The translations under genes were made by a program, and so were the position numbers. From assembly GCA_035314825.1 (NCBI GenBank), contig DATFYX010000076.1:1-35056 (forward strand): a stretch of 35,056 nt of DNA, in the 5' to 3' direction. Positions 7,557 to 33,893 of this stretch are shown one piece after another. Source of the stretch: Candidatus Eremiobacteraceae bacterium (GTDB lineage Bacteria > Vulcanimicrobiota > Vulcanimicrobiia > Eremiobacterales > Eremiobacteraceae). Each line of letters opens with the position of its first letter. Position 1 is the stretch's first letter. The notes below the pieces were generated by a model. That model was not told where the DNA came from and did no database searches. It saw nothing but the letters and a program-made list of their open reading frames with translations.

Positions 7557-7624
7557 CAGCGATCACTCCCCTCCTGCGGACCCGTCACGTTGTCCGCGTC
7601 GCCCCCCATACCCTCTCTCTGTAG

Positions 7625-7644
7625 CGGTCGAATTCATTCGACCG
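7625..7644. repeat. 20-bp palindromic repeat, copy 1 (CGGTCGAATTCATTCGACCG)
   Basis: Nine-base arms flank a two-base centre (TC). The copy is preceded by TAG and followed by TC, as in other copies. It lies in the 107-bp gap between fabI and iscX, both on the minus strand, so it is downstream of one gene and upstream of the next. A weaker second dyad (about 7643-7662) follows directly and may be a decayed copy. Confidence 0.85.
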
Positions 7645-9826: not shown

Positions 9827-11070
9827 CCGCCGACGAACTTGACGCCGAACAGGCTCGGCACGAACGTTCCGACGACATAGCCGATGATGCCGGCGCCGGC
9901 GCCGATGAGAAACTGCTCGAGTCCCGAGCGCCATGGATTTCCGTTGGTGACGCGCGCCTTCACGATGCCGATGCCGAACAGCGCCAGACACGCGAGCGAG
10001 ATCGAGAGCGCGAGCGCCTCCCTGCCGTTGGTGAAGACGTAGGGAAGGATCGGTGCGATCGCGCCCAACAGGAACGAGGGCGCCATCACGGCCGCGTCCT
10101 TGAGCGGGTTGCCCGCCGATTCGGTGTCAAGCCCGAGCTCGGCGCGCGCCATCACCTCAAGCGCTTTGTTCGGATCTTTGGAGACGGCCAGCGCGGCGTC
10201 GCGCGCCTGCTCGGCGCCCATGCCCTGCAAACGGTAGATCTCGGCCAGCTCTGCGAGCTCTTCGGCAGGATGCTCGATGATCTCGCGCAGCTCGCGCTCG
10301 ATCTCAGAACGGTGGACCTCTGATTCGGCCTTCGACGACAGGTATTGCCCGGCGGTCATCGCCACCATGCCGGCCACGCCGGTGGCGACGCCGGCGAGCA
10401 GGATCGTGGTATTGGATTCGTGCGCGCCGAAGAACGCCGACACGACGCTGACGGTCGTGAGCAGTCCGTCCTGAGCGCCGAACACGAACTCGCGGATGCG
10501 CGTGCGCGATGCCACGCGCTCGCGCTCCTCTGTGATCTCCGCCGGTCCGGTCATCTTCTCGACGCCGCGAGCGGTGCGTTCGAGCGCCCTAGGCGCCGTC
10601 GCGGCGGCACCATCGGCGGGTTTTTCGCTGCGGTCGAATACATTCGACCGCTCCATGCCGCTCGGTGCGGCGGGGCCGCGGCGTTCCACGAGCGCGAGCG
10701 CGTCTTGGAAGAGCTTGACGTGCGCCTGCTCGCGCGCCATTGCTACTTCGAAACCCACAAGCGCGTCCGTGCGTCCTTCTGCTTTGGCCTCCGCGATGTA
10801 GCGCGGGTAGGTCACGGCCGATTCAGCTGCCTCATGCTCGACGACTTGACGGAGGTTCTCGGCGGTGCTCTTGACGGCGCCAAGCGCGCGCAGATGCATC
10901 GTGGCGTGGATGATCTCATCGCCCGCCGCTTGCATGAACGCCTCGGCGACCTCCGGATAGCCCTCGCTCAGCGCCGCAAGCGCGTAGGCGCTATAGAGGC
11001 GGTGGGTCTTGGCTTCGTCCATGAACGAGGTCCACAGATTGAGCTCGGTCTTGGACACGTCGATCCGCAT
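9823..11070 (-). CDS. MbfA-like ferritin-domain/VIT1 fusion, probable iron(II) exporter
   Basis: The 415-residue protein joins an N-terminal ferritin-like diiron four-helix domain (about 5-130) to a C-terminal VIT1/Ccc1 domain (about 185-410). Candidate metal ligands include E19, E52 and H55 (GDEIIH), E79/E83, E108 and E114/H117. In the VIT part, FVFGAQDGLLTTVSVVSAFFGA and GQYLSSKAESEVHRSEIERELREI are classic, followed by helices at about 330-410. This is the architecture of MbfA, the membrane-bound ferritin known from rhizobia, which exports iron under iron or peroxide stress. I chose the ATG at 11070 (MRIDVSKTEL). Residues about 139-148 (MERSNVFDRS) are encoded by a copy of the 20-bp palindrome and sit in the linker. 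Confidence 0.87.
   Translation of the reverse strand: MRIDVSKTELNLWTSFMDEAKTHRLYSAYALAALSEGYPEVAEAFMQAAGDEIIHATMHLRALGAVKSTAENLRQVVEHEAAESAVTYPRYIAEAKAEGRTDALVGFEVAMAREQAHVKLFQDALALVERRGPAAPSGMERSNVFDRSEKPADGAAATAPRALERTARGVEKMTGPAEITEERERVASRTRIREFVFGAQDGLLTTVSVVSAFFGAHESNTTILLAGVATGVAGMVAMTAGQYLSSKAESEVHRSEIERELREIIEHPAEELAELAEIYRLQGMGAEQARDAALAVSKDPNKALEVMARAELGLDTESAGNPLKDAAVMAPSFLLGAIAPILPYVFTNGREALALSISLACLALFGIGIVKARVTNGNPWRSGLEQFLIGAGAGIIGYVVGTFVPSLFGVKFVGG
10631..10650. repeat. 20-bp palindromic repeat, copy 2, inside a coding region
   Basis: CGGTCGAATACATTCGACCG with nine-base arms and a two-base centre lies inside the MbfA-like gene, in frame, encoding part of MERSNVFDRS in the loop between the ferritin and VIT1 domains. 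Read on the minus strand it carries the GGAG 5' flank seen in other copies. Confidence 0.85.
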
Positions 11071-14481: not shown

Positions 14482-15804
14482 GTGCTCGCGTCGACGCCGT
14501 TCACCATCGCGCTGCGGGATGTGCTCGGCGAGCGTTTCCGCGTGCATCCGGACGATTGCGCGCGCAGCGCGGTCGGCGGCGTCGTGCCCAAACTCGTGCT
14601 TTCCCCGCGCACGTTGGACGAAGCGGCGCGCGCGGTGAAGATCATCGCCGGCGAGCACGCCTCGGTCGTGATCCGCGGCGCAGGTACCAAGTCGAATCGA
14701 CCGCCGCGGCGCGCCGAGATCGATGCCGTGATCGACACCTCGGAATTGCGCGGCGTGCTCGAGCACAAGCCCGGCGACCTGACCGCGACCGTCGCCGCTG
14801 GAACGCCGCTGCAGGATCTGCAGTTCGCGCTGCGCCGCTACGGCCAGTTCTTCCCGAGCGACGCGCCCTTTGCCGCAAGCGCGAGCCTCGGAGGCACGCT
14901 GGCCGCCAACGCGAACGGCGCGCTCCGGCAGCGCTACGGCGCGCTGCGCGACAACGTGCTGGGCGTGCGGCTCGCGCTTTCGGACGGACTCGTCGCGTTC
15001 AGCGGCGCGAAAGTCGTCAAGAGCGTCGCGGGCTATGACACGCACAAAGCGTTCATCGGATCGCGCGGTACGCTGGGGCTCATCGGCGAGGTGACCATCA
15101 AGGTCGCGCCGCTGCCCGCCACCCAGCGCCTGCTGGTCGCGTCGTTTGCCGATTGCGCATCGGCGTGCGCGGCGGCGACCGCCATCGCCGGATCGCCGCT
15201 CTTCGTGATGGCGATGACGCTGCACGATGCAGGCGCCGCGGCACGCGTGCCCGCCTTGCGAGCCTCGGGCGCGCCGCCGTGGACGCTGGCCGTGCGCTGC
15301 GGCGGGTCGCGCGTCGCGACGGTCGCACAGTTCGACGGCGCCGCGGCGCTCTGCAAAGAAACGGGCAGCGACGCGCTGCGCGACATCCCGGCGGAGCTCG
15401 TCGAGCCGTTGTGGGCGGACATCGCCGAGCTGAGCGCAGGCGCGGCGTATGATCCCCAGTCCTACGTGATGGCTAAGTTCGTCGCGCCGCCCGCGCAGAC
15501 GCACGCGCTGGTTGGCGCGGTGCGGACCGCGTGGCCCGAGGCGCAGATCAGCGCACACCCGTATGCGGGCGTGCTGCTGGCCCACATACCGGCTGCGTCG
15601 GCGTCTCCCCAGCCGGGTGCGTTGTGGCACGCGTGCGCCGACAATCAATGGACCGTCGAGTTTCTCTCGGCGCCGTACGCACGGGCGCAGGAGTTCATCG
15701 CGCCCTTGCCCGCCGGACTACCGATGAAGGTGCAACGGCGCCTCAAAGCGGCGCTCGACCCGGCAGGCACCTTCGACGCGGGCGGGTTCATCGGTGGCAT
15801 CTGA
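14482..15804 (+). CDS. glcE: Glycolate oxidase subunit GlcE (FAD-binding)
   Basis: The 440-residue protein is a second PCMH-type FAD-binding subunit. Motifs are VVIRGAGTKSNRPPRRAEID in the N-terminal FAD half, PSDAPFAASASLGGTLAANANGALRQRYGALRDNVLGVR, SGAKVVKSVAGYDTHKAFIGSRGTLGLIGEVTIKV (shown here as motif names; each typical of GlcE), and a C-terminal part ending MKVQRRLKAALDPAGTF. GTG at 14482 follows the glcD stop by six bases, and its end overlaps glcF by 11 bases, so the three subunits are one operon. It is longer than E. coli GlcE (350 aa), mostly in the middle and C-terminal parts. Confidence 0.9.
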   Translation: MLASTPFTIALRDVLGERFRVHPDDCARSAVGGVVPKLVLSPRTLDEAARAVKIIAGEHASVVIRGAGTKSNRPPRRAEIDAVIDTSELRGVLEHKPGDLTATVAAGTPLQDLQFALRRYGQFFPSDAPFAASASLGGTLAANANGALRQRYGALRDNVLGVRLALSDGLVAFSGAKVVKSVAGYDTHKAFIGSRGTLGLIGEVTIKVAPLPATQRLLVASFADCASACAAATAIAGSPLFVMAMTLHDAGAAARVPALRASGAPPWTLAVRCGGSRVATVAQFDGAAALCKETGSDALRDIPAELVEPLWADIAELSAGAAYDPQSYVMAKFVAPPAQTHALVGAVRTAWPEAQISAHPYAGVLLAHIPAASASPQPGALWHACADNQWTVEFLSAPYARAQEFIAPLPAGLPMKVQRRLKAALDPAGTFDAGGFIGGI

Positions 15805-17107
15805 GCCGCTGATCAGGCCGATCGGCTACGCCGGTCCCGAGCGCCCCGCCGACGACGACCTGAGCAAGTGCACGCGCTGCGGGCTGTGCGAACAGGCCTG
15901 TCCGACCTACCGCGAGCTGCGCGAGGAACCAGACTCCCCGCGGGGCCGTGTCTTCCTTATGAAGCAGGTGGCCGACGGCGTCGCCGACATCGACGAGGAC
16001 CTCGCCGAGCACCTCTACCTGTGCCTGGGCTGCCGCGCGTGCGAGACCGCGTGCCCATCAGGCGTGCCCTACGGGCGCCTGCTCGAATACGCGCGCTTCC
16101 AGATCGAGCAGCGCGGCGAGCTGACGCCGGAGCGGCGCGGCTGGCGCCGCTTCCGCCGCCTCGCGTTCGAGCAGCTGCTGCCGAATGAGGGCCTCTTCAA
16201 ACTCGCCATGGCGCCGGCACAGCTCTTGCAGCGCATCCCGTGGCTGGCGACGTTCGCGGCCGCCATCGCGCCCGGGCGCACGCGCAAGCTGCTCGACATG
16301 ATCCCTCGCAACGGCGCCGCCACCCATGGAGCGCTGCCCGAGATCATCCCGGCCGAAGGCGAGCGGCGAGCGCGCATCGGCTTGTTCACCGGCTGCGTCA
16401 TGGGGTCGTTGTTCGGACACGTGCACGAATCGCTGGCGCGCGTCCTGCGGCACAACGGCTGCGACGTCGTCGTGGCGCGCGGCCAGTGGTGTTGCGGCGC
16501 GCTCAACGTGCACGCCGGCGAGCGCGAACACGCCAAAGCGATGGCCAAGCGCAACATCGACGTATTCGAGCGCGCTCAGGTAGATGTCATCGTGCTCGAT
16601 TCGGCGGGCTGCGGCGCGATCATGAAAGAGTATGGCGAACTGCTGCGCGATGATCCGCAGTATGCGGAGCGCGGCGCGGCATTTGCGCTCAAGGTCAAGG
16701 ACGCGAGCGAGCTGCTCTTCGATCTGGGCGTGCGCACGGATTTCGGCACGCTGCGCAAGCGCATCACGTATCAAGATGCGTGTCATCTCGCGCACGGACA
16801 GGGCGTGCGCAGCCAGCCACGCTCTCTGCTCGCGCAGATCCCCGGGGTCGACTACGTCGAGCTTGCCAACGCCGATCGCTGCTGCGGCGCGGCCGGCGTC
16901 TACAGCCTGACGCAGCCCGAGATGTCGGCGAAGATCCTTGAAGAGAAGCTCGACGCGATCGAGGACGCCAACGCGGATTACCTGGTGACGGGCAACCCGG
17001 GCTGCCATATGCAGATCCAGGCCGGCATGCTCGAGCGCGGCATGCGCACCAAGGTCAAACATCTGGCGGAGGTGCTCGACGAAGCCTACGCCCTCAAGAC
17101 CCCGTAG
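15794..17107 (+). CDS. glcF: Glycolate oxidase iron-sulfur subunit GlcF
   Basis: The 437-residue subunit passes electrons from the flavin subunits towards the quinone pool. It has two 4Fe-4S motifs, C26-T-R-C29-G-L-C32-x3-C36-P and C77-L-G-C80-R-A-C83-x3-C87-P. Two cysteine-rich CCG domains follow, with GCVMGSLF and QWCCGALNVHAG, then YQDACHLAHGQGVR and DRCCGAAGVY. GTG at 15794 overlaps the glcE end. The stop codon is followed directly by a copy of the 20-bp palindrome, which fills the whole gap to the convergent lipoprotein gene. Confidence 0.94.
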   Translation: MASEPLIRPIGYAGPERPADDDLSKCTRCGLCEQACPTYRELREEPDSPRGRVFLMKQVADGVADIDEDLAEHLYLCLGCRACETACPSGVPYGRLLEYARFQIEQRGELTPERRGWRRFRRLAFEQLLPNEGLFKLAMAPAQLLQRIPWLATFAAAIAPGRTRKLLDMIPRNGAATHGALPEIIPAEGERRARIGLFTGCVMGSLFGHVHESLARVLRHNGCDVVVARGQWCCGALNVHAGEREHAKAMAKRNIDVFERAQVDVIVLDSAGCGAIMKEYGELLRDDPQYAERGAAFALKVKDASELLFDLGVRTDFGTLRKRITYQDACHLAHGQGVRSQPRSLLAQIPGVDYVELANADRCCGAAGVYSLTQPEMSAKILEEKLDAIEDANADYLVTGNPGCHMQIQAGMLERGMRTKVKHLAEVLDEAYALKTP

Positions 17108-17127
17108 CGGTCGAATTTATTCGACCG
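17108..17127. repeat. 20-bp palindromic repeat, copy 3, filling a convergent gap
   Basis: CGGTCGAATTTATTCGACCG begins at the base after the glcF TAG and ends at the base before the TGA of the convergent lipoprotein gene. It has a nine-base stem with a TT centre. A terminator role here is possible but the stem has AT pairs near the loop and no T run. Confidence 0.88.
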
Positions 17128-26939: not shown

Positions 26940-26957
26940 TTTACTCTACCCCTGGAG

Positions 26958-26977
26958 CGGTCGAATTTATTCGACCG
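26958..26977. repeat. 20-bp palindromic repeat, copy 4, in a divergent promoter
   Basis: CGGTCGAATTTATTCGACCG, identical to copy 3 and with a GGAG 5' flank. It overlaps the -35 position of the rightward promoter and the start region of the leftward one, so it could influence both even if its origin is as a repeat. Confidence 0.88.
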
Positions 26978-30524: not shown

Positions 30525-30974
30525 ATGCGCATGCGCCGGGCGAACGACGAGGACGCGGCCGCGATCCATCAGGTGCTCGAGCGCAGCGGTGGGGATGCGG
30601 CGCTTGCACCGGTCGAGGCGACGCTGGGCGACGTCGAATCGTTCTTGCGCGCCGACAACGCCGGCGCGTTCATCGCCGAGTTGGACGACCGCGATGCCGG
30701 TGCCGCGCTGTTCAGCCGCCAAGGCGATGTCATGTGGCTTTTCCATATCGCCGTTCTGCCGCACGCGCGCGCGAAGGGGATCGGCAAAGCGCTGGTCGGC
30801 GCGGTCGAAGCCGGCGCACGGGGAGCCGGCGCGAGCGCGGTATTCGTCCAGATCCCAAAACACGTCGAGGCCCGCTCCTTCTTCGAAGCGCTGGGCTATC
30901 ACGTGGACATCGAAGAAGACGACGTGGTCGCCGGAGAACCCATCACGCTGGTGGATTTGGTCAAACTGGTCTAG
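30525..30974 (+). CDS. GNAT family N-acetyltransferase
   Basis: The 149-residue protein has the GNAT fold: MRMRRANDEDAAAIHQVLE, the beta4/acetyl-CoA segment WLFHIAVLPHARAKGIGKALVGAVEAGARGAGA (with the R/Q-x-x-G-x-G/A pattern in ARAKGIGKAL), and the final ARSFFEALGYHVD. Substrate unknown. Its TAG overlaps the TAG of the convergent acylase gene at a shared CTAG. Confidence 0.88.
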   Translation: MRMRRANDEDAAAIHQVLERSGGDAALAPVEATLGDVESFLRADNAGAFIAELDDRDAGAALFSRQGDVMWLFHIAVLPHARAKGIGKALVGAVEAGARGAGASAVFVQIPKHVEARSFFEALGYHVDIEEDDVVAGEPITLVDLVKLV

Positions 30975-33358
30975 CGCCCTGTGCTGGGCGTCAGGACGAG
31001 CGTATGCTGGGTAGCCGCGACGACAGCCGCCTGGGTGAACGGGACCGGCGCCCAACCGACGTGCGTGTAGTCGTCGAGCTGGTCGTCGTAGTGGGGATCG
31101 CTGTATACGCCGGATTCGCCGAGCGTCAAGAGCATCGATGACTGGTCGAAATCCGACAGATCCACCACCAGGCGCTGCGAGGGTCCGTGATCCGGTTTGG
31201 CCGCGTATGGGGCGAAGCCGCTGCCGGGCTGCGGCACCGGCGGTAAGCTCAAGAACCCGAGAAACCATTTCACCGAGAGCGGATGGCGATAGATCGCCGC
31301 GTTGCGCACCCCCCACGGCTGCAGCGCGGCGAGATCACGAGCTGCGCCGGATCCACCGCGGCTCGCCGCCTCCCGGGCAGCATTCACGATCGCGGCCTCG
31401 ACGCTGGCACGCGTGATGCCGAGCTTGCTCAAGCGAGTATCGCCATCCAAGGCGCGCAACAGCGGCACGATCTTCCAATAGTGCTTGTCGTACTGCGCGA
31501 ACAGCACGGAGCCGAGGCGCGGCTCGAGCAGATCGCGCGCGAGCCAAGCCTCTTCGAGCACGATGAACGTAGGGACTCGCGACGGCACGTCCATCATGCC
31601 GTTCCACGTCCTGAGCTGGCCCGCGAGCGCGATAGTATCGGGATCGGTCGAGCTCGCGAGTAGGCGCGCGGTCGCCTGCGCAAGCCGCCAATGCGGGTAA
31701 TCGAAGATGTCGGCTTGCACGGCGCCGACGAGTTGCGGCGTCGCGTCACGCATCGGCGCGAGGTCATGTGTGATGCGATCGGCGCGGAAGGGCGGCTCGA
31801 AGTAGGTCGAGAGCTGCGGCCGGTACGATGGCGCGACCAGCTCATTGTTCGCGGTGACGATGAAGCCGACACGTGGATCGAGCGCGTGGGGCAGCTTGTC
31901 GAACGGCACGTCGCCGATCCATGCATAGCGGTCGTCTTGACCTTCGACCGGGACCGAGCCGTCGCCGCGGGCGCGCAGCGGCACCATGCCAGCGGCTTGA
32001 TACCCGATGTGACCGGCTGTATCCGCGTATCCGAAATTGAGCACCGGGCCCTCGAGCTGCGCGAGCGCCGCGCGGAATTGCTGATAGTTCGCTGCCGTGT
32101 CGATGTCGAGCAGCGAACGCGCCGTGCCTTTGGCGCGCAGGATCGTCCACGCCAGCGCCAACCCGCGCGTCCCGTCGCGCTGGATCACCGGACCGTGGCG
32201 GGTCACCAACACGTCGAGCACGACATCGGGCTGGCCCTTGACCCCGATGCGTTCGATGCGATGCTGCGCCTCGAGCCATTTGCCGTTGGCGAGATACTCG
32301 TCCGAGGTCGCCGAGCGGAAGCGCTCGATATACAGGTCCTCGACGGCCTCTTCGGCGCTGGTGACGCCGAACGCGATGCGCTCGTTGTGCCCGAGGATGA
32401 TTCCAGGCAGCCCGGGCAGCGTGAAGCCGCCGACGTGCAGAGCGCCTCCGCGCACCTCGACCGTCCACCACGTGCTCGGCAGCGTTCGCCCGAGGTGCGT
32501 GTCGTTCGAAAGCACCGGCTTGCGCGTGGACGTGCGCGCACCCGAGACCATCCAATTGTTGGATCCCGTGCCGCGCTCGTGCCCGGTGGGATCCTGGCCC
32601 AGCGCAAGATCATATGGAGCGGTCGAGTTTACTCGACCGTCAGCAGCGTATGGAGCGGTCGAGTTTACTCTACCGTCATAGCCCGGGATATGATGCTCAA
32701 GCTTTGGGATCTGCATGTCGACCAGCGCGTCCGCGGTCTGCACGCCGAACTTGTCTACCAGCGCTGCCTTGACGTCGATGTAATACCATTGATCGTCGAG
32801 CCGCTGCGCCATCAGCTTCGCGATGGCGTAGGTGTCGAGCGGCGTCCATGGTTCCCAGCCATACCCCAACAGCTTGAACTCGATCGGCAGCGGATGGGAA
32901 GCCGCAGCCGCATTGACCCCAGACGCATACGCTTCAAACGCGGCCCGCGTGGGCGCGTCGAGCGCGTCCACGTCGACTTGCGCGGCATGGGTAAGTCCAA
33001 GCGTGCGCATGTAGCGGTCCACGTCGAGCGCGCCGGGGCCGGCGAATTCGGACAACCGGCCTTCTGCCTGACGGCGCAGCGTGTCCATCTGCCAGAGCCG
33101 ATCCTGTGCGCAGGCAAACCCCTCGGCGAACAACGCATCGTCAACCGTCTGAGCTTCGATATGGGCGATGCCGCGGTCGTCGCGCCGGATCGACACCGGC
33201 GCGCTCAAGCCGGTGACGGTGACCGTGCCGTCAAGCCTCGGCAACGGGGCGCGTATGAACCATGCTGCCAGCCCGAGGGCGAGCAGCAACACGCTGAAGA
33301 GAACCACCAGCGCCGTGCGCCAGAGGTTCGTGCTCGCGTCACGTGTCGTGATCGACAT
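30971..33358 (-). CDS. Penicillin-acylase family (Ntn) amidohydrolase, membrane-anchored
   Basis: The 795-residue precursor begins with a hydrophobic anchor (about 14-36), then the alpha-chain part (VSIRRDDRGIAHIEAQTVDDALFAEGFACAQDRLWQMD), a spacer, and the beta chain starting at the catalytic Ser266 in GTGSNNWMVSG. Oxyanion and structural marks such as NDTHLGRTLPSTWW, FTLPGLPGIILGHNERIAFG and YADTAGHIGYQAAGMVPLR follow. These enzymes self-cleave and hydrolyse amides such as acyl-homoserine lactones or beta-lactam side chains; the substrate is not clear. Residues 229-249 of the spacer are encoded by two tandem copies of the palindromic repeat. The ATG overlaps the upstream flavoprotein by 20 bases. 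Confidence 0.91.
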   Translation of the reverse strand: MSITTRDASTNLWRTALVVLFSVLLLALGLAAWFIRAPLPRLDGTVTVTGLSAPVSIRRDDRGIAHIEAQTVDDALFAEGFACAQDRLWQMDTLRRQAEGRLSEFAGPGALDVDRYMRTLGLTHAAQVDVDALDAPTRAAFEAYASGVNAAAASHPLPIEFKLLGYGWEPWTPLDTYAIAKLMAQRLDDQWYYIDVKAALVDKFGVQTADALVDMQIPKLEHHIPGYDGRVNSTAPYAADGRVNSTAPYDLALGQDPTGHERGTGSNNWMVSGARTSTRKPVLSNDTHLGRTLPSTWWTVEVRGGALHVGGFTLPGLPGIILGHNERIAFGVTSAEEAVEDLYIERFRSATSDEYLANGKWLEAQHRIERIGVKGQPDVVLDVLVTRHGPVIQRDGTRGLALAWTILRAKGTARSLLDIDTAANYQQFRAALAQLEGPVLNFGYADTAGHIGYQAAGMVPLRARGDGSVPVEGQDDRYAWIGDVPFDKLPHALDPRVGFIVTANNELVAPSYRPQLSTYFEPPFRADRITHDLAPMRDATPQLVGAVQADIFDYPHWRLAQATARLLASSTDPDTIALAGQLRTWNGMMDVPSRVPTFIVLEEAWLARDLLEPRLGSVLFAQYDKHYWKIVPLLRALDGDTRLSKLGITRASVEAAIVNAAREAASRGGSGAARDLAALQPWGVRNAAIYRHPLSVKWFLGFLSLPPVPQPGSGFAPYAAKPDHGPSQRLVVDLSDFDQSSMLLTLGESGVYSDPHYDDQLDDYTHVGWAPVPFTQAAVVAATQHTLVLTPSTGR
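32617..32680. repeat. 20-bp palindromic repeat, copies 5 and 6, tandem with 36-bp period, inside a coding region
   Basis: Copy 5 is CGGTCGAGTTTACTCGACCG at 32620-32639; copy 6 at 32656-32675 has one mismatch in the right arm. Both differ from the other copies by paired changes (AAT/ATT to AGT/ACT) that keep the dyad. The 36-bp unit encodes GRVNSTAPYAAD, then GRVNSTAPY again, in the acylase spacer just before the catalytic serine. Confidence 0.88.
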
Positions 33359-33893
33359 AATATCCGCCGCGCATACGTTGGATGATCGCGATCGCAACTT
33401 TGGCGCCGTCGCCCGCCGAAATGCTCGCTTGGCTCGGAAGGCCGGTGATGCGGCCGGCCGCATAGAGCCGATCTACCGCGGTCCGACCCTCTGAATCGAC
33501 GCTGACAAATTTGTTGCCGAAGCCCCCTAGCTCTAAGCCTAGCGCATGCGCGATGTCGGTGCGCTTGTTGGATGCCAGAATCGCGTAGTCGGCCTCATAC
33601 GCCCCCGCGCCGGTTCGAACAGAAAACGATGCGCCGGCGTTGGCGACCGCCTCCACGTCTTCATCGAACAGCTCGGCGCCGAAACGGGTGGCCTGGCGTC
33701 GGCCGAGTTCGATGAGCTCTGGGCCCGGGATACCATCGGGAAAGCCGAGATAGTTGTGCACGCGCGAGACGCGGTAGAGGCTCGATTCGTGCTGATCGAA
33801 GACCGCGACCGAAATGCCGGCGCGCGCGAGGAAGAGAGCCGCAGAAAGACCGGCCACGCCGCCGCCGACGATCGCGACCTGAAACCGTTTCAC
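33339..33893 (-). CDS. Half-size thioredoxin-reductase-like FAD flavoprotein
   Basis: The 184-residue protein has the N-terminal FAD fold (FQVAIVGGGVAGLSAALFLARAGISVAVFD), RVHNYLGFPDGIPGPELI, a beta strand YAILASNK and the C-terminal FAD motif AGRITGLPSQASISAGDGAKVAIAII. The whole NADPH-binding domain and the CxxC redox motif of thioredoxin reductase are absent; about 180-200 residue relatives with this layout exist. The chosen GTG 33893 gives MKRFQVAIVGGG; a TTG at 33926 is possible. It overlaps the acylase start. Function unknown. Confidence 0.75.
   Translation of the reverse strand: MKRFQVAIVGGGVAGLSAALFLARAGISVAVFDQHESSLYRVSRVHNYLGFPDGIPGPELIELGRRQATRFGAELFDEDVEAVANAGASFSVRTGAGAYEADYAILASNKRTDIAHALGLELGGFGNKFVSVDSEGRTAVDRLYAAGRITGLPSQASISAGDGAKVAIAIIQRMRGGYYVDHDT

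Follow-up and report, generated by a model that had tools for sequence, protein, structure and literature searches.

What is a doubled DNA palindrome doing inside the coding sequence of a penicillin acylase-like enzyme, a few codons upstream of the catalytic serine? The initial annotation of this locus regarded the repeat as tandem copies of an element inserted in frame into the self-excised spacer between the alpha and beta chains, where an insertion would cost little. We have analyzed the whole stretch of DNA containing the gene (35,056 nucleotides, here called the window) together with its source genome (G000; 2.55 Mb, 97% complete), whose nearest named relatives are metagenome-assembled genomes of Ca. 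Eremiobacterota.

The gene lies on the minus strand at 30971 to 33463 and belongs to the penicillin acylase family (S45, Ntn-hydrolase), its product matching the Penicil_amidase Pfam domain (PF01804, E=4.3e-178) and carrying a Ser nucleophile after a linker. The open reading frame has 830 codons, and translation likely starts at the ATG at 33356 to 33358, Met36 of the longest frame, where the gene finder also begins its call (30971 to 33358); counted from there, the protein has about 795 residues. Residue numbers used here follow the longest frame (P0001), while those of the initial annotation (residues 229-249, Ser266) are based on Met36. Two direct copies of the repeat, at 32613-32642 and 32649-32678, are identical at 29 of 30 bases and have a period of 36 bp. 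On the plus strand, the first element copy (32615-32639) consists of a T-GGAG tag and a perfect 20-nt palindrome, CGGTCGAGTTTACTCGACCG, with a predicted single-stranded fold of -9.0 kcal/mol (z -3.1). The second (32651-32675, plus strand, direct orientation) has a single mismatch (CTCTACC) that breaks its stem, and the two copies are jointly predicted to fold into a longer hairpin of -17.3 kcal/mol (z -4.8).

Read on the minus strand, positions 32612 to 32677 are the codons for DGRVNSTAPYAADGRVNSTAPY, residues D263 to Y284, in a linker without predicted secondary structure. The palindromes spaced by 36 bp do encode a peptide twice, as had been claimed, but the unit is DGRVNSTAPY, in the arrangement DGRVNSTAPY-AA-DGRVNSTAPY, and AAD is not repeated. 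The codon for the catalytic Ser301 (GTG|SNNW) occupies 32561-32563 on the minus strand; this residue is invariant across 42 relatives and marks the start of the beta chain by homology, the beta chains of solved relatives beginning at the residue aligned with it. The repeat indeed precedes the catalytic serine, although not directly, with 16 residues standing between them.

The element is not confined to the acylase gene. The window has six loci with its 18-nt core (8 strand matches), where dinucleotide shuffles lead one to expect 0.01, and the genome contains about 150 exact copies of the core, with none for a reversed-pattern control. Counted with the tag, exact copies number 144 in G000 and 2 in the congener G001, whose acylase is 71% identical; the class has 115 other genomes, all of them with 0. 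When up to 3 mismatches are allowed, G000 gives up to 223 matches, some perhaps counted on both strands, and two congeners give 6 and 0. From 119 copies collected in about 740 kb of G000 stretches plus the window (about 780 kb), we obtained a 25-nt consensus, T-G[G/T]AG-CGGTCGA[A/G]T-T[T/C]-A[T/C]TCGACCG, that is, a T-G[G/T]AG tag followed by a 20-nt stem-loop. Conservation ends abruptly at the limits of this unit, from about 1-1.9 bits inside to near 0 outside, where there is only a preference for A before it and T after it. The tag, which stands directly before the palindrome, is GGAG in 75 copies, GTAG in 34, and GCAG in 3. Stem pair 13/18 is A-T in 82 copies, G-C in 26, C-G in 3, and G-T in 4; A-T, G-C, or C-G thus accounts for 111 of the 119, and the palindrome is maintained through compensatory changes at this pair.

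Single copies and direct pairs dominate, pairs 28-65 bp apart being common and compact inverted pairs few. Neighboring copies share the same orientation in 52 of 74 cases against 38 expected (p=0.0004). On contigs C11, C23, C41, and C59, orientation is coherent over tens of kilobases, with nearly all copies on C11 being on the minus strand. Such coherence is as expected if insertion follows the direction of replication; no significant link was found between element orientation and GC skew or strand-corrected third-codon skew, and the skew itself is weak.

With genes called by a simple codon-usage finder rather than taken from a published annotation, 67 of the 119 copies fall between genes, 15 at gene edges, 12 near gene ends, and 25 well inside genes. 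Since 92% of the sampled DNA is coding, coding DNA is avoided by the element but not excluded. Of 80 copies, 21 lie in convergent gaps, which make up 11% of intergenic bases. The remaining copies in the window illustrate this range. At 7620-7644 (plus strand) a copy between genes has a GTAG tag and is followed by a degenerate inverted copy, while at 26953-26977 (plus strand) a GGAG-tagged copy sits between divergent genes. The GTAG-tagged copy at 17103-17127 (plus strand) provides, with the TAG at 17105-17107, the stop codon of the upstream open reading frame 15794-17107. A further GGAG-tagged copy at 10631-10655 (minus strand) lies in the linker of what we take to be a rubrerythrin-VIT1-like fusion, where it is translated in frame as MERSNVFDR; the congener has a linker of similar length there without the element.

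Copies inside genes show a clear choice of reading frame. One of the six frames of the element contains TAA or TGA, and none of the 25 internal copies uses it, while 16 are read in the GR[M/V/I/T]NSTA[P/T] frame; with each gene counted once, 12 of about 19 sites are in the GRxNSTAP frame. The acylase likewise does not use the stop-containing frame, and the suggestion that its frame avoids a stop codon is therefore confirmed. Judged by their sequence motifs, the host proteins include MutY, FabH, alanine racemase, NuoC, an E2 subunit and kgd (in their linkers), MetE, imidazolonepropionase, an AMP-ligase, and diacylglycerol-kinase-like, MobA-like, DUF255/YyaL-like, and UvrD-like helicase proteins. 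Alignments with homologues place the internal sites in loops and linkers that vary among relatives. The MutY-like adenine glycosylase (L060 6422-6480, G000:C77) has two in-frame copies 36 bp apart, which separate its cluster-binding cysteines from the C-terminal part, and the UvrD-like helicase has a tandem pair at L055 17183/17225.

The acylase site has the same character. The AlphaFold2 model of the enzyme has a mean pLDDT of 87, with neither helix nor strand at residues 256-299 and pLDDT values below 50 at 266-276 and 279-281, and this prediction supports the assignment of the repeat segment to a disordered linker. The view that the repeat is an element read in frame where the protein tolerates it is upheld, with the element found genome-wide and the acylase site in a disordered linker. 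Its exact location relative to the processed chains is less defined. In most solved relatives the alpha chain runs 22-40 residues beyond the last aligned position, and by arithmetic on these alignments its end would fall at about residues 269-286, a range that overlaps the repeat (263-284). The repeat could thus belong to the tail of the alpha chain, to the spacer, or to both. Removal at maturation, which had been put forward as the reason why the repeat is tolerated, is unnecessary as an explanation because the same element and peptide also occur in linkers of proteins that undergo no self-cleavage (MutY, FabH, NuoC, the UvrD-like helicase, and kgd).

We consider it likely that the acylase repeat belongs to a family of mobile, REP-type palindromes that has expanded in this lineage, and that it has a passive role as a linker. 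REP elements are short stem-loops with a tetranucleotide foot, typically GTAG (PMC3733652, PMC8266576). The family described here is a high-copy, dispersed short palindrome within the 20- to 50-nt range, has a stem-loop, and shows an extragenic bias with copies near stop codons and in convergent gaps, all as in GTAG-type REPs. Two observations count against this reading. The main tag is GGAG and not the canonical GTAG or GT(A/G)G, and a search for the REP-associated transposase RAYT (Y1_Tnp) in G000, G001, and G002, with Pfam and with a profile built from five RAYT-like proteins of the family, returned no match, and no REPtron, a cognate RAYT gene flanked by REPs, was found in G000 (97% complete). 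Of the 11 other genomes in the same family (f1), 10 have a Y1_Tnp match. Only genus g1 has the element, although Y1_Tnp is found in none of its three genomes. The mover may have been lost, may be in the missing 3% of the genome, or may be of another kind; REPtrons can be lost (PMC3733652).

How the copies entered the genes was addressed through the length of the host linkers. W206 and Ser301 are 95 residues apart in the acylase of the window and 89-100 (mean, 94.1) apart in the 15 nearest relatives without the repeat, 11 of which have 94-96. These relatives fill the linker with other, unrelated residues, and the repeat sequence is not conserved among them. The homologue alignment that the initial annotation had proposed as a check thus contradicts the insertion it described: the 22 repeat residues are not a net insertion, because the linkers of relatives have the same length and different residues. 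Across 17 intragenic sites compared with the two congeners, the mean net gain is +1.8 amino acids, whereas pure insertion predicts +11.8 (p=0.001). At the DUF255/YyaL-like site (L053 15809-15833, G000:C11), the element-encoded GRMNSTAPYVD is in register with the family pattern GR.....PYVD and the length is unchanged, suggesting, from the alignment, a replacement guided by partial similarity. Family length without the element is kept in the acylase, the DUF255/YyaL-like protein, and the helicase. Pure replacement as a general rule was rejected, given that across the whole of genus g1 the FabH, kgd, MobA-like, and AMP-ligase linkers exceed those of other genera in the family by about 5-25 amino acids or more. 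We also rejected the idea that an abundant REP family of the congener itself explains the equal linker lengths, since none was found in 371 kb of G001.

A simple, recent in-frame insertion into an excised spacer, as initially proposed, would account for copies that are in frame and in a tolerant linker, and a clean-looking gain of 10 amino acids is seen in the diacylglycerol-kinase-like gene (L215 vs L234). The acylase linker, however, has the modal length of its family, the gain over the 17 sites is far from the one predicted, and the repeat may lie partly or wholly in the alpha chain, whose projected ends overlap it. We therefore regard this explanation as improbable overall, and for the acylase it is already refuted unless a deletion of equal size came later. 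A stronger contender, although still on the unlikely side, is that the insertions are old and took place in the ancestor of the genus, with palindromes that were kept here but decayed beyond recognition as such in the congeners, which would make the lengths look equal today. The linkers that are longer throughout g1 fit with this, as does a slight similarity to the element in congener linkers, whose summed best match is 323 against 300.6 after codon shuffling (p<0.0005), a lead rather than proof given that the linker limits were chosen by the analyst. The strongest residual similarity is in the AMP-ligase of G001 (L209 4890-4947 vs L224), where an apparent decayed copy, TGGCGCCGTCGAGCTCGCCCGGCCG, encodes GAVELARP at the position of an intact pair in G000. 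Ancient insertion is nevertheless at odds with the acylase, the DUF255/YyaL-like gene, and the helicase, in which the whole family has equal length without the element, and the copies in G000 are too alike for such an age without continued conversion. It is also conceivable, although we would give it a rather low probability, that short partial similarity guided REP copies to overwrite resident linker DNA with no gain in length, as might happen if a folded REP single strand annealed to the lagging-strand template and was joined in. The DUF255/YyaL-like and acylase linkers would then have been replaced rather than inserted into. Overwriting of this kind would fit both the missing RAYT and the strand-coherent orientation and, if true, would amount to a recombination-like spread without a dedicated transposase.

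Two further explanations do without mobility. The palindromes could be sites for a DNA-binding protein, such as a regulator, a nucleoid protein, or a chromosome-segregation factor, that are kept by selection. That they are oriented, coherently so along contigs, and that no transposase was found in G000, G001, and G002 are compatible with binding sites, but a 25-nt unit with nearly invariant positions at about 150 places against about 2 in the congener would require many parallel substitutions at each site, and known REPs show a like mixture of intergenic and stop-codon sites (PMC3733652); we think this quite improbable. Least credible of all is that acylase maturation or activity selected the peptide repeat and that the DNA palindrome is incidental. 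The linker does adjoin the autoproteolytic serine and its length is kept across the acylase family, yet the same DNA element recurs at other sites, some of them between genes or read in other frames, and acylase relatives do not conserve the repeat. The genome-wide copies already exclude peptide selection as the origin of the repeat.

For the REP-type mobile palindrome that we favor, we propose that copies spread as folded single strands, handled in trans by a RAYT (Y1/HUH-type) or a similar single-strand nuclease that would now be missing from the genome or diverged beyond recognition. Most copies would persist in intergenic DNA and directly behind stop codons, and intragenic ones in flexible linkers, mainly in the small, polar GRxNSTAP frame. 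The acylase pair probably arose from one arrival and a local 36-bp duplication. These copies would have taken over the linker before the serine with its length unchanged, either by overwriting or by insertion with a compensating deletion, and would act as a passive spacer peptide rather than provide a new function.

A literature search for a REP-type family in Ca. Eremiobacterota found none, and Eremiobacterota is not among the phyla listed for GTAG repeats (PMC3733652). As far as searchable papers show, this is a REP-type family new to the phylum with an unusually clear intragenic use, of which the acylase is one case among many. Conserved proteins (MutY, FabH, alanine racemase, NuoC, MetE, and kgd) carry in-frame copies, and the frame encoding a flexible peptide is measurably preferred. 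This lends support to the view that ready-made linkers can come from mobile palindromes. With its length-neutral sites and absent RAYT, the genus is one in which the mode of REP spread can be tested.

GTAG-tagged REPs (PMC3733652, PMC2817692) share with this family a stem-loop in the 20- to 40-nt range that carries an unpaired tetranucleotide on one side, a copy number between about 100 and several hundred, a mostly intergenic location near stops, where the tag may give a TAG stop codon, and the occurrence of dimers. Published REPs likewise have tags that supply TAG stop codons and are enriched in convergent gaps (PMC3733652). Intragenic REPs were already known, more than half of them being dimers or groups that encode 20-30 amino acids, many in DNA repair genes (PMC3733652), and the pairs in MutY and the UvrD-like helicase echo this excess. 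What is unusual here is that the tag is mostly GGAG instead of GTAG or GT(A/G)G, that RAYT is undetected in the genus, and that some linkers are occupied without a change in length; the 25-nt unit and the common direct pairs 28-65 bp apart also differ. The Rickettsia palindromic elements (CGTC-tagged RPE-4 and RPE-6 and the longer RPE-1) are similarly found in frame in many unrelated proteins but have another tag and sequence and were described as insertions (PMC3733652). Multiplication of short palindromes within one lineage is also known from REPINs (PMC3116915) and BIMEs, but these are mainly paired inverted REPs, whereas the family described here is dominated by single copies and direct pairs, with a few compact inverted pairs.
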